In this document: positions 12,926-16,407 of the stretch, piece after piece
Layout of the letters: every line of letters starts with the position of its first letter
Position numbering within the stretch: the stretch's first letter is position 1
Source of the DNA: an uncultured Pseudokineococcus sp.
Lineage (GTDB): Bacteria; Actinomycetota; Actinomycetes; Actinomycetales; Quadrisphaeraceae
Assembly (NCBI RefSeq): GCF_947499845.1
Contig: NZ_CANMPM010000007.1
Coordinates: 62,001-126,000, forward strand
DNA: 64,000 bases
Direction of reading: 5' to 3'
The notes under the pieces: generated by a model
Told to the model about the DNA's origin: nothing
What the model saw: the letters and a program-made list of their open reading frames with translations, nothing else
Database searches by the model: none
Translations under genes and position numbers: made by a program

Positions 12926-14950
12926 GTGTCACGTCACCTCATCCGCCTCGGTGGGGCGCTCACGTGCGCCGTCGTCGTCACCCCACTCGGCCTCGTCACG
13001 GCACCCGCGCACGCCGTGCCGGCGGAAGTGGCCGCAGCCGCCGTGGAGAGCGCGCCCGTCGCCACCAGCACCGAGACCGTGTCCGAGGTGGGCGTCGACG
13101 CCGCCGCCCTCGCGCAGCTGCGACGGGCCGGCGACTCCGAGGCCAGACCGGCCGTGCTCACCGAGCAGGTGACCACTGACGACGCCTTCGACGTCCTCGG
13201 AGTCACGTGGTCCAGTGCCGACACCACCGTCGGTGCGGTCACCGTCAGGGTGCGCGTCCTCGAGGAGGGGGCCTGGTCGAGCTGGGAGGCGCTGCCTGTC
13301 GAGGACGCCGGCCCCGACGCCGGCTCCGAGGAGGCGGCGGCTGCGGGCGGGGTCATCGGCACCTCCCCGCTCGCCACCGACGGGGCGCGGGGCTATCAGG
13401 TGCGCGTCGACACGGCGACCGGCACGGCCCCGCGGGACGTGCGGGTCCGGGTCGTCGACGGCGGAGAGGGAGACGTCGCGCGAGTCGACGCAGCGGTGGG
13501 CCCGACGGCGGCCGCGACCGCGGCCGCGGCGCGGGGAGACGCCGTCACCGCGACGACCGCGTCCTCGCGGGGCCTGGTGACCACAGCGGCCGCTGGGGCG
13601 CCGCGGCCCGCCATCGTCACGCGCGCCCAGTGGGGAGCGGACGAGTCGCTCGCCCGCGCCACCGGTCGGAACTCGACCGTGCGGGCGATGGTCGTCCACC
13701 ACACCGCCTCGTCGAACAACTACTCGACGGCGAGTCAGTCGATGAGCCAGCTGCGCGGGATCTACGCCTACCACACGAAGTCTCTGGGGTGGGCCGACAT
13801 CGGGTACAACTTCGTCGTCGACAAGTTCGGCACGGTCTACGAGGGCCGACGCGGCAGCATCACCCAGACCGTCCAGGGCGCGCACGCGTCGGGCTTCAAC
13901 ACCGACACCATGGGTGTCTCCGCCATGGGGAACTACGAGGAGGCCGCTCCTAGCTCCGCTCTCGTCAGGAGCATCGCCGCGGTCGTCGCGTGGAAGCTCG
14001 GCGAGTACGGCGTCTCACCGACGGCGACGACGACCTTGACGTCGGCCGGCGGCAGCACCTCCCGCTACGGCCGGGGGCGCGTCGTCACCATGCCGACCGT
14101 CCTGCGGCACATGGACGTCGGCCTGACCGCCTGCCCGGGAGTCGGGCTCTCCGGGCAGATGGGCACGATCCGCGCTCGCGCGGCGCAGCTGCAGGCGTCA
14201 GCAGCTCCGACGCCGACGCCGACGCCGACGCCGACGCCGATGCCGACGCCGACGCCGACGCCGACGCCGACGCCTGTGGCGGTGCCTGGGGCGGCTCAGT
14301 CTCTGGTGGGGGACTGGGACGGTGATGGGCGGGACGAGGTCGGTCTGTTCGTCGACGGGGTCGTGTCGCTGCGGCGTGATGACGGCGCTGCCGTGCGTTA
14401 CCGGTACGGCCGGGCGGGGGACGTGGCGGTGGTGGGGGACTGGGACCGGGACGGCAAGGATTCCGTCGGGGTCTACCGAAACGGCATGTGGTACTTGCGG
14501 AACAGTGCGTCGGGTGGGGCCGCGGACCGTGCGGTCGGTTTCGGTCTCGCGGGTGATCGGCCGGTCGTGGGGACGTGGGACGGCAGGAGCCTGGGGTTCG
14601 GGGTCGTCCGCAAGGGTCGGTGGCTGCTGAGGTCGTCGGTGTCCCAGGGGCCGGCGGACGTCGTGGTGGACTTCGGTCGTGCCAGTGACCGGCCACTGGT
14701 GGGGGACTGGGACGGTGACGGCAGGGACACCCCTGGGCTCCAGCGGGGTGATCTGCGCTTCGCGCTGCCCGGGTTGCGTCAGGTGCCGGTGGCGCCGGTG
14801 GGCTTCGGGAGGGCGTCGATGCAGGGCTTCGCGGGTGACTTCGACGGTGATCGTCGTGATGGTTGGGGGGCGCGCAGCGGGGACCACTTCGTGTGGCGGA
14901 ACGACGTGCGCGCCGGTGTGGCCCAGGGCGACGTTAGGTTCGGCGGATGA
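12926..14950 (+). CDS. Secreted N-acetylmuramoyl-L-alanine amidase (PGRP type) with five FG-GAP-like blades
   Basis: Cleaves the bond between MurNAc and L-Ala in peptidoglycan, outside the cell. The protein has 674 residues from the GTG at 12926, chosen because AGGAG sits 8 nt upstream; a GTG at 12890 has no spaced ribosome site. A signal peptide (to about residue 33) ends AHA. The PGRP/amidase_2 domain covers about 225-415: RAQWGADESL, the zinc ligand in VVHHTA near 258, FVVDKFGTVYEGR, and RHMDVGLTACPG supplying His and Cys ligands. A (Pro-Thr)n linker leads to five blades with GDWDGDGRD-type calcium loops. The linker and blades are 100% identical in DNA to the next gene, whose ATG overlaps this stop. 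Confidence 0.9.
   Translation: MSRHLIRLGGALTCAVVVTPLGLVTAPAHAVPAEVAAAAVESAPVATSTETVSEVGVDAAALAQLRRAGDSEARPAVLTEQVTTDDAFDVLGVTWSSADTTVGAVTVRVRVLEEGAWSSWEALPVEDAGPDAGSEEAAAAGGVIGTSPLATDGARGYQVRVDTATGTAPRDVRVRVVDGGEGDVARVDAAVGPTAAATAAAARGDAVTATTASSRGLVTTAAAGAPRPAIVTRAQWGADESLARATGRNSTVRAMVVHHTASSNNYSTASQSMSQLRGIYAYHTKSLGWADIGYNFVVDKFGTVYEGRRGSITQTVQGAHASGFNTDTMGVSAMGNYEEAAPSSALVRSIAAVVAWKLGEYGVSPTATTTLTSAGGSTSRYGRGRVVTMPTVLRHMDVGLTACPGVGLSGQMGTIRARAAQLQASAAPTPTPTPTPTPMPTPTPTPTPTPVAVPGAAQSLVGDWDGDGRDEVGLFVDGVVSLRRDDGAAVRYRYGRAGDVAVVGDWDRDGKDSVGVYRNGMWYLRNSASGGAADRAVGFGLAGDRPVVGTWDGRSLGFGVVRKGRWLLRSSVSQGPADVVVDFGRASDRPLVGDWDGDGRDTPGLQRGDLRFALPGLRQVPVAPVGFGRASMQGFAGDFDGDRRDGWGARSGDHFVWRNDVRAGVAQGDVRFGG
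14207..14274 (+). repeat. (CCGACG)n hexanucleotide run encoding a Pro-Thr linker
   Basis: About eleven CCGACG units, one altered to CCGATG, encode a Thr-Pro spacer between the amidase and FG-GAP-like parts. A shorter run of five units sits at 15701-15730 in the next gene. The 708-bp duplication begins inside this run, so it is a likely recombination point. Confidence 0.9.
14243..14950 (+). repeat. 708-bp perfect direct repeat, copy 1
   Basis: Read base by base, 14243-14950 is identical to 15700-16407 (offset 1457). It runs from inside the (CCGACG)n linker through the stop codon of the amidase gene and encodes the last 235 residues, five FG-GAP-like blades. Identity ends right after the TGA. 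Confidence 0.95.
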
Positions 14951-16407
14951 TCTCCCCCACCGGTCATCGCGGCAGCCGGACGAGGCTCCTGGTCGGACTG
15001 ATGACGGCCGCTGTGGTCGCGACCATCCCCACCCCGGCGCAGGCAGCTGGGCCCGAGGTCCCCGGGACGGGCGCCTCCGTGGTGTCCGCCGACGACCTCG
15101 TGAGGCCCAGCCGGCCTGGGACGGCGAGCGCGCTGGCGGCCGCTGCGCCCGAGCCCGTCAGCCGGTACCTGTCCGCCCCGGAGGCGCTGGCGCCGTACGT
15201 GCCGCAGGTGAGTTGCGACCCGGTCGAGCGACCGGGGACGGTCAGGCTCAGAGAGCTGCTGAGGACCACCTACGGCGGGCCTGTCGGCGGCATCACGCGG
15301 CCGTGCGGCGGGGCTCGGAGCGAGCACTACGAGGGGCGCGCCTACGACTGGATGCTGGACGCCAGCGACCCGGAGGACGCTGCGAAGGCGAGCGATTTCC
15401 TCACCTGGTTGATCGGCCCGGACGCCAAGGGGGTGGCAGCTGGGAACGCGCGTCGCCTGGGCGTGATGTACGTCATCTGGGACAGGCGCATCTGGGGCTC
15501 CTACAACGGCGTCTGGAAGTCGTACACGGGAGCGAGTCCCCACACCGACCACATCCACATCTCGCTCAGCTGGGACGGCGCCATGGCGCGCACGTCCTTC
15601 TGGACGGGGACGACGGTCGCCGGCACCGACTACGGGCCTTGCGTCCGACAGGTAGGGGTTCCAGCGCCCCCGTACCGCGGCAGGAACACGCAGCCGTGCC
15701 CGACGCCGACGCCGACGCCGACGCCGACGCCTGTGGCGGTGCCTGGGGCGGCTCAGTCTCTGGTGGGGGACTGGGACGGTGATGGGCGGGACGAGGTCGG
15801 TCTGTTCGTCGACGGGGTCGTGTCGCTGCGGCGTGATGACGGCGCTGCCGTGCGTTACCGGTACGGCCGGGCGGGGGACGTGGCGGTGGTGGGGGACTGG
15901 GACCGGGACGGCAAGGATTCCGTCGGGGTCTACCGAAACGGCATGTGGTACTTGCGGAACAGTGCGTCGGGTGGGGCCGCGGACCGTGCGGTCGGTTTCG
16001 GTCTCGCGGGTGATCGGCCGGTCGTGGGGACGTGGGACGGCAGGAGCCTGGGGTTCGGGGTCGTCCGCAAGGGTCGGTGGCTGCTGAGGTCGTCGGTGTC
16101 CCAGGGGCCGGCGGACGTCGTGGTGGACTTCGGTCGTGCCAGTGACCGGCCACTGGTGGGGGACTGGGACGGTGACGGCAGGGACACCCCTGGGCTCCAG
16201 CGGGGTGATCTGCGCTTCGCGCTGCCCGGGTTGCGTCAGGTGCCGGTGGCGCCGGTGGGCTTCGGGAGGGCGTCGATGCAGGGCTTCGCGGGTGACTTCG
16301 ACGGTGATCGTCGTGATGGTTGGGGGGCGCGCAGCGGGGACCACTTCGTGTGGCGGAACGACGTGCGCGCCGGTGTGGCCCAGGGCGACGTTAGGTTCGG
16401 CGGATGA
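14947..16407 (+). CDS. Secreted ARB_07466/M15-like wall protein with the same FG-GAP-like module
   Basis: A 486-residue exported protein whose ATG overlaps the amidase stop (ATGA). The signal peptide ends near residue 33 (AQAA). Residues 75-215 match the ARB_07466-like domain found in D-Ala-D-Ala carboxypeptidase-type proteins: HYEGRAYDWMLD, ARRLGVMYVIWDRRIW and SPHTDHIHISLSW, whose His and Asp residues are likely metal ligands as in M15/VanY folds. A short Pro-Thr linker and five blades follow, identical to the amidase C-terminus. The enzyme probably trims peptidoglycan peptides; the activity is inferred. It forms a coupled pair with the amidase. Confidence 0.85.
   Translation: MISPTGHRGSRTRLLVGLMTAAVVATIPTPAQAAGPEVPGTGASVVSADDLVRPSRPGTASALAAAAPEPVSRYLSAPEALAPYVPQVSCDPVERPGTVRLRELLRTTYGGPVGGITRPCGGARSEHYEGRAYDWMLDASDPEDAAKASDFLTWLIGPDAKGVAAGNARRLGVMYVIWDRRIWGSYNGVWKSYTGASPHTDHIHISLSWDGAMARTSFWTGTTVAGTDYGPCVRQVGVPAPPYRGRNTQPCPTPTPTPTPTPVAVPGAAQSLVGDWDGDGRDEVGLFVDGVVSLRRDDGAAVRYRYGRAGDVAVVGDWDRDGKDSVGVYRNGMWYLRNSASGGAADRAVGFGLAGDRPVVGTWDGRSLGFGVVRKGRWLLRSSVSQGPADVVVDFGRASDRPLVGDWDGDGRDTPGLQRGDLRFALPGLRQVPVAPVGFGRASMQGFAGDFDGDRRDGWGARSGDHFVWRNDVRAGVAQGDVRFGG
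15700..16407 (+). repeat. 708-bp perfect direct repeat, copy 2
   Basis: Identical to 14243-14950. Upstream of 15700 the sequences diverge (C at 15699 against G at 14242) and downstream they diverge after the TGA. The repeat uses more T-ending codons (GGT, GAT, CGT) than neighbouring genes. Confidence 0.95.

Follow-up and report, generated by a model that had tools for sequence, protein, structure and literature searches.

A beta-propeller module shared by two predicted wall hydrolases of Pseudokineococcus: an exact repeat best explained by concerted evolution

In a 64,000-nucleotide stretch of DNA from an uncultured Pseudokineococcus sp. (contig NZ_CANMPM010000007.1, positions 62,001 to 126,000; the window hereafter), two adjacent genes for predicted peptidoglycan hydrolases, here called A and B, end in the same 708 bp. 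The repeat is real and not a product of chance, and concerted evolution of a lectin-like targeting module on two wall hydrolases accounts for it best. The full proposal, which we consider probable though well short of certain, is that A, a peptidoglycan amidase, and B, a VldE-like endopeptidase, carry propellers homogenised by gene conversion and most likely share one glycan ligand. Wall hydrolases must act on their own wall at the right place, and their targeting modules have to follow a changing wall. Two unrelated catalytic domains whose targeting module recombination keeps uniform in more than one species would offer a natural case.

An exact repeat at the ends of two genes

Gene A (12890–14950, forward strand, 686 amino acids), assigned from its open reading frame and Pfam, codes for an N-acetylmuramoyl-L-alanine amidase (Amidase_2) followed by a Pro-Thr linker and a C-terminal propeller. 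Gene B (14947–16407, forward strand, 486 amino acids), assigned from its open reading frame and a profile match to PDB 9flh, would code for a VldE-like (LAS) peptidase whose C-terminus is the same propeller. The genes are adjacent and overlap by the four bases ATGA (14947–14950, forward strand), where A stops and B starts, and these four bases recur at 16404–16407 as the end of B. Base-by-base comparison of 14243–14950 with 15700–16407, both on the forward strand, gave no difference in 708 positions, and the first base past either end already differs. Each copy takes in linker, five-repeat propeller and stop: the left end lies in frame within the CCGACG (Pro-Thr) linker, at codon 452 of A and codon 252 of B, and the right end includes the TGA stop of both genes. 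From copy to copy the distance is 1457 bp, with a spacer of 749 bp. The original prediction, made from the letters of the window, had described this direct repeat, its borders in the linker and at the stop codon, and a whole C-terminal module common to two unrelated catalytic domains; all of this was seen again, the two domains now being read as an amidase (A) and a VldE-like peptidase (B).

A chance origin of the repeat is excluded on the measure of synonymous divergence (dS), because the value between the two copies is 0, against 0.57–0.83 for the catalytic parts of the same genes between three species. Its exactness is that of one draft assembly, of 3.72 Mb in 76 contigs. When this assembly was searched for more copies, as the prediction had proposed, and the best 40 of 433 first-look candidates were scored, the ten matches listed comprised the two full-length copies and eight matches of 32–54 bp, with no third long copy among them. 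At the protein level, the same genome yielded one further module gene, on contig 24 (6446–7735 of locus L060), which matched in three pieces, the best of them 47% alike, and which is not homogenised with the pair; it has no Pfam match at E 0.001. A phage or plasmid origin of the module was considered and dropped, as tblastn at E 1e-5 against 50,697 records of phages and 72,556 of plasmids gave no match to the propeller.

The gene pair in related genomes

Four Pseudokineococcus genomes were compared, the source of the window (G000) and three others (G001, G002 and G003). The overlapping A-B pair is also found in G002 and G003, so that all three genomes hold one A and one B in the same order. 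In G003 the two tails form an exact repeat of 699 bp, placed as in G000, and the propellers of these two species share 52% amino-acid identity. In G002 the tails of A and B are 73% identical to each other, 62–65% identical to those of G000 and 44–47% to those of G003. The catalytic parts show 61–77% amino-acid identity between species. Within a genome, the dS of the tails is 0 in G000, 0.01 in G003, where a single mismatch lies just beyond the exact block, and 0.37 in G002. Between species it reaches 0.77–1.10 for the A and B tails, and the G002 value lies below every between-species value, those of the catalytic parts included. Protein-level selection alone is not what makes the copies alike, to judge from these synonymous sites.

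When 26 tails were placed in a protein tree, those of A and B paired by genome, as identical pairs in G000 and G003 and with support of 100/95 in G002; the propeller pair of G002 has a bootstrap value of 99. On the nucleotide alignment, a genome-wise tree beats a gene-wise tree by 747 log-likelihood units (approximately unbiased, AU, test, p 0.0007), and two trees that split the G002 pair alone are also rejected by the AU test (p 0.006 and 0.001). Thus in three of the three Pseudokineococcus genomes with the pair, the propellers within a genome are closer to each other than are orthologues between species. Weighing against these results are the Shimodaira–Hasegawa test, under which both trees that break up the G002 pair stay acceptable (p 0.41 and 0.40), and the size of the sample, since the pair is found in three genomes only, and both exact cases are drafts, that of G003 with a NODE-style contig name. 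With these points counted, concerted evolution limited to one domain is well supported by the comparison of sequences, and gene conversion is its most likely route.

The original prediction had offered ongoing gene conversion as one source of the identity, and this option gains from the way in which the propellers of G000, G002 and G003 group by genome. Its other suggestion, a new copying of the module onto a second enzyme, did not hold, for both genes carry the module in each of the three genomes of the genus that have the pair, and the copies look re-homogenised rather than newly acquired. The comparison with related strains that it proposed returned both the exact repeat of G003 and the 73% pair of G002. 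It had also named, as an observation that would count against it, relatives in which the modules have diverged normally, and G002 goes half of the way: its two tails have drifted to 73% and are yet closest to each other.

A more radical form of the copying idea would have a single recent event give B its module, the earlier B having had no propeller or an unrelated tail. We hold this to be very improbable, as the propeller of B is present in all three genus genomes with the pair, and in G034 and G029 as well, and the module would have had to be gained independently at one and the same position. What speaks for it comes from G001, where the tail of B consists of four LGFP stretches (7170–8909 of locus L176); no match to the catalytic domain of A was found in that genome. 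Because this same-genus B gene has LGFP repeats in the place of the propeller, the B tail is, at the level of sequence, an exchangeable part.

Draft assemblies raise a further alternative, namely that propellers which truly differ were collapsed to one consensus by a short-read assembler. Both exact cases are indeed drafts, with 76 contigs in G000 and the NODE-style name in G003, and in another genome (G050) two contigs (L056 and L057) end inside propellers that are 97% alike; the assembly may have broken at a near-identical repeat, or the two may be strain variants of a single gene. Against this stand the unique and resolved flanks of both copies and the occurrence of an exact repeat at the same place in two separate species. 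Moreover, collapse presupposes near-identity, so that the concerted pattern would stand in any case. An assembler may, on this reasoning, erase a few differences within the repeat, but would not be expected on its own to attach the module to both catalytic domains. We therefore regard an artefact as quite improbable, and the exact repeat at the same place in G003 rules out assembly duplication as the whole story. Concerted evolution also carries a caution for the reading of drafts: an exact repeat of 700 bp within a pair of coding genes need not be an assembly error and may have a biological origin.

Module pairs in other genera

Other pairs of genes with the module at one locus served as controls. 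In Quadrisphaera, the same-locus pairs of an amidase and a SpoIID gene follow the gene in five of five genomes (G004, G007, G009, G010 and G011), the opposite of the Pseudokineococcus A-B pairs, with tails 47–51% alike within a genome and 84–96% alike to the closest tail elsewhere. Two Geodermatophilaceae loci (L072 and L120) also follow the gene (49% within a genome against 59–61%), as does, more weakly, the pair of a Modestobacter bin (L114). The SpoIID domain was confirmed by Pfam in all seven cases checked, the five Quadrisphaera genomes, L072 and L120. Within Pseudokineococcus itself, the SpoIID neighbour (S) of the pair in G002 and G003 has a tail that is 42–47% like those of A and B beside it, and in the tree each of the two S tails has the other as its partner. 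In Georgenia and Oceanitalea, 29 of 31 same-locus pairs follow the gene and 2 are closer within the genome. Homogenisation as a general rule for modules that lie side by side was considered and is refuted by the Quadrisphaera pairs, by L072 and L120, and by these 29 pairs.

Of all 65 same-locus pairs, 16 show greater likeness inside their own genome than to any other genome, the A-B pairs of G000 and G002 included; the count leaves out the A-B pair of G003, as tails identical to one already listed were removed. For the other 14 (L132, L061 of G003, G013, G022, G034, L111, L067, L077, L070 and five in L082), closer relatives would be needed before concerted evolution could be claimed, and simple tandem duplication may account for some of them. 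The tree groups the S tail with the B tail in G034 and with the A tail in G013, which is suggestive at most, because for neither genome does it hold a close relative with both genes.

The Georgenia and Oceanitalea loci (among L066–L130) carry the same module, of about 213 residues, on many different open reading frames per genome, of about 340–2550 codons, often at the C-terminus and sometimes near the N-terminus, in the manner of a general targeting part. In G022 (7123–9798 of locus L047), two adjacent genes have a multi-repeat module, 88% identical, near their N-termini.

The propeller and its candidate ligand

The module of A (14294–14947, forward strand, 218 amino acids) consists of five repeats with the consensus GDWDGDG...D...VRRG. 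An AlphaFold2 model from 70 aligned sequences is made of strands with no helix and has a predicted local distance difference test score (pLDDT) of 96.2 and a predicted template modelling score (pTM) of 0.91. Loops of the DxDxDG type together with this predicted propeller fold place the module among the propellers of VCBS/FG-GAP-like kind. The module itself does not reach the gathering cut-off of FG-GAP_3 (PF13517), scoring 17 against 26.9 bits, and 32 of the 70 aligned members match this family at E 0.01 or better.

Fold alone, as modelled, does not prove a lectin, because the first rows of a Foldseek search are propellers that are not lectins, with the KICSTOR complex at the top and a fungal GlcNAc lectin at rank 6. 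When the Foldseek matches were re-scored with VIA, the best was UmbA4 (9oee_A; Z 12.5, root-mean-square deviation 4.0 Å over 211 residues, 20% identity), followed by 5c2m (Z 10.9) and tachylectin-2 (1tl2, Z 10.5), and a profile of the module searched against PDB sequences matched UmbA4 and nothing else, at E 0.0037. Tachylectin-2, an animal lectin, has a five-bladed propeller and shares 9% identity with the module.

UmbA4 is a propeller lectin of the Streptomyces umbrella toxins (PDB 9oee) and binds a teichuronic acid-like polymer linked to wall teichoic acid, a kind of wall polymer that differs from species to species; its sugar-contact positions are given as W668, Y551 and N633 (PMC13274773). 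Its propeller is C-terminal and belongs to a secreted actinobacterial protein, as the module of A and B probably does; it has six blades and targets other species, whereas the present module has five sequence repeats, shares 20% identity with it and sits on the cell's own wall hydrolases. VCBS-type propellers are typically tied to carbohydrate recognition, and to protein contacts too (PMC9218822). In view of the UmbA4 match and of the polysaccharide genes around the pair, the likeliest ligand would be a wall or capsular glycan, and by analogy the shared propeller most likely binds one such glycopolymer. The glycan-binding role proposed in the original prediction has thus become likelier through the UmbA4 match, both in VIA and in the profile search, and stays putative. 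Several points weigh against it. The superposition with UmbA4 is loose and its identity low, the other 49 of the best 50 VIA chains, which include many non-lectins, reach Z 8.6–10.9, UmbA4 is absent from the best 50 Foldseek rows, a single-sequence search of the PDB with the module gave no match, and propellers of the VCBS type can bind proteins as well (PMC9218822).

The functional side of the proposal has a rival of its own, which leaves concerted evolution untouched. The propeller may be a generic tail for secretion or anchoring, its identity in the two genes being the outcome of neutral recombination alone, while selection does not act to match their binding. The presence of the module on many other Georgenia and Oceanitalea open reading frames, with 2 of 31 same-locus pairs closer within the genome, fits such a tail. 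Its likeness to a lectin, by analogy with UmbA4, and the polysaccharide-gene context argue for a more specific part, although neither has any bearing on selection. We give the generic tail a substantial chance, if a minority one.

The module also differs in composition, its G+C content at third codon positions (GC3) being 82.2% (14294–14950) against 87.5–96.7% in nine other genes or gene parts compared; the propeller at about 82% stands beside 90% for the catalytic parts of A and B and 94–97% for several neighbouring genes. In G003 the propeller GC3 is 91–92% against 96–97% for the catalytic parts, and G002 has no such drop. A foreign origin was not concluded from these values, as 24 of 174 windows of the same length have a GC3 as low, in a crude set of open reading frames of which some are probably not genes.

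The catalytic domains of A and B

The amidase half of the original prediction, a PGRP amidase paired with an M15-like enzyme, was confirmed by Pfam, which places Amidase_2 (PF01510) at residues 261–417 of A (E 1.2e-15, 58.4 bits against a cut-off of 26). For B the match was to another enzyme. Its catalytic half has no Pfam or NCBIfam match, the name ARB_07466 used in the prediction is found in no paper of the open PMC literature, and a profile of the domain built from 23 sequences instead matches PDB chain 9flh ('LysM domain-containing protein') at E 8.3e-6, a chain which we take to be VldE, of LAS fold and clan MD. The alignment with 9flh spans profile positions 69–111 of 150 only, so that the HX6D part was compared by spacing alone.

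Within the catalytic domain of B (15241–15684, forward strand), H29, D36 and H106 are invariant in 23 of 23 aligned relatives and supply the zinc-ligand pattern HX6D and HxH, at the spacing of VldE, within a site of HX6D and HxDHxH residues. For VldE (Spr1875), an L,D-endopeptidase, the source gives H301, D308 and H375 as zinc ligands and names E368, H370, D372, H373 and H375 (PMC11667670). The aligned string of 9flh ends in E-N-H-Y-D-H-V-H and agrees with these last five residues, and in spacing and motif H29, D36 and H106 of B are the counterparts of H301, D308 and H375. B thus shares the HX6D and HxDHxH zinc-site pattern with VldE; it differs in that the VldE-type chain 9flh is annotated as containing LysM and has no propeller. 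The catalytic domain of B is accordingly a candidate VldE-like L,D-endopeptidase (LAS fold, clan MD); a two-sequence structure model of it, with a pLDDT of 42, was too poor for fold assessment.

Amidases cleave the bond between MurNAc and L-Ala. With B predicted to act between L-Ala and D-Glu, the two enzymes should attack neighbouring bonds of the stem peptide. Both proteins begin with signal-like N-termini, as judged by eye, and are probably secreted.

Route, direction and meaning of the exchange

The route that we propose is homologous recombination between the two propeller segments, 749 bp apart, by which gene conversion would repeatedly overwrite one with the other. In each Pseudokineococcus species the A-B pair would then evolve in concert while diverging between species. 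The clean borders of the repeat need no special mechanism, because A and B are homologous only between the linker and the stop codon, and conversion fits best because three species have kept the same number of genes in the same order. Unequal crossing-over between the propellers, with the B domain duplicated and deleted in turn, could also homogenise them and would make non-reciprocal conversion unnecessary; such cycles would leave the same trace, which tells against conversion as the sole reading. Tandem direct repeats 1457–1460 bp apart are suitable substrates, and G034 holds two neighbouring B-type domains. Each of the three genomes nevertheless has one A and one B in the same order, and the B of G003 keeps its own 3' end, so that we think crossing-over unlikely, though less so than an assembly artefact.

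The last conversion in G000 ran most likely from A to B. In all three genomes A ends in GATGA, overlapping the start of B, and B ends in GGATGA in G000 only, in CGCTGA in G002 and in GAGCTGA in G003. Because B in G000 ends with the ATGA junction of A, we infer that the junction sequence was most likely copied onto the end of B.

Two known systems bear comparison. In the PE/PPE genes of Mycobacterium tuberculosis, also an actinobacterium, recombination between repeats overwrites a paralogue; there related genes convert, whereas here the homology is confined to the tail of two otherwise unrelated enzymes (PMC12046097). In domain movement (DOMO), described for the specificity genes of type I restriction systems, recombination likewise shifts recognition domains between positions, but diversifies by moving different domains, whereas here two domains are made the same (PMC3077401). 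A search of titles and the beginnings of abstracts in the open PMC literature returned nothing bearing on gene conversion or concerted evolution of FG-GAP, peptidoglycan-enzyme or autolysin-lectin modules, and no paper on FG-GAP together with an amidase.

If the ligand is as proposed, the shared propeller would dock both enzymes to the same species-specific wall or capsular glycopolymer. More tentatively, and with slightly less confidence than we would allow the generic tail, the propellers may be locked together by selection: as the wall glycopolymer shifts under pressure from phages or umbrella toxins, one propeller would adapt or be replaced, conversion would copy the new specificity to its partner, and both hydrolases would go on reading the same 'self' glycan. 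Were this true, it would amount to a heritable matching mechanism for surface enzymes. The proposal predicts that the module tracks the species-specific glycan.

Gene neighbourhood

Upstream of A lies the SpoIID/LytB gene S (10744–12237, forward strand, its start being the scan start; PF08486 at E 1.1e-10, TIGR02669), which has no propeller in G000, whereas its counterparts in G002 and G003 carry one. Downstream of B follow, all on the forward strand, a WsaF-type glycosyltransferase (16532–17941, with WsaF_N and WsaF_C), a large family-2 glycosyltransferase identified by domain match (17941–21108, its start again the scan start) and an NDP-sugar 4,6-dehydratase-type protein (22357–23361, PF16363 at E 1.2e-72). 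The pair thus sits among glycosyltransferase and sugar genes, in what looks like a surface-polysaccharide locus. The two large flanking glycosyltransferase genes at 6421–9558 and 17941–21108 share blocks of 70–82% nucleotide identity and look like paralogues. Farther along the window, a tandem array at 30092–30296 is built from a 41-bp unit that contains GCGTCACCTTCGCG.

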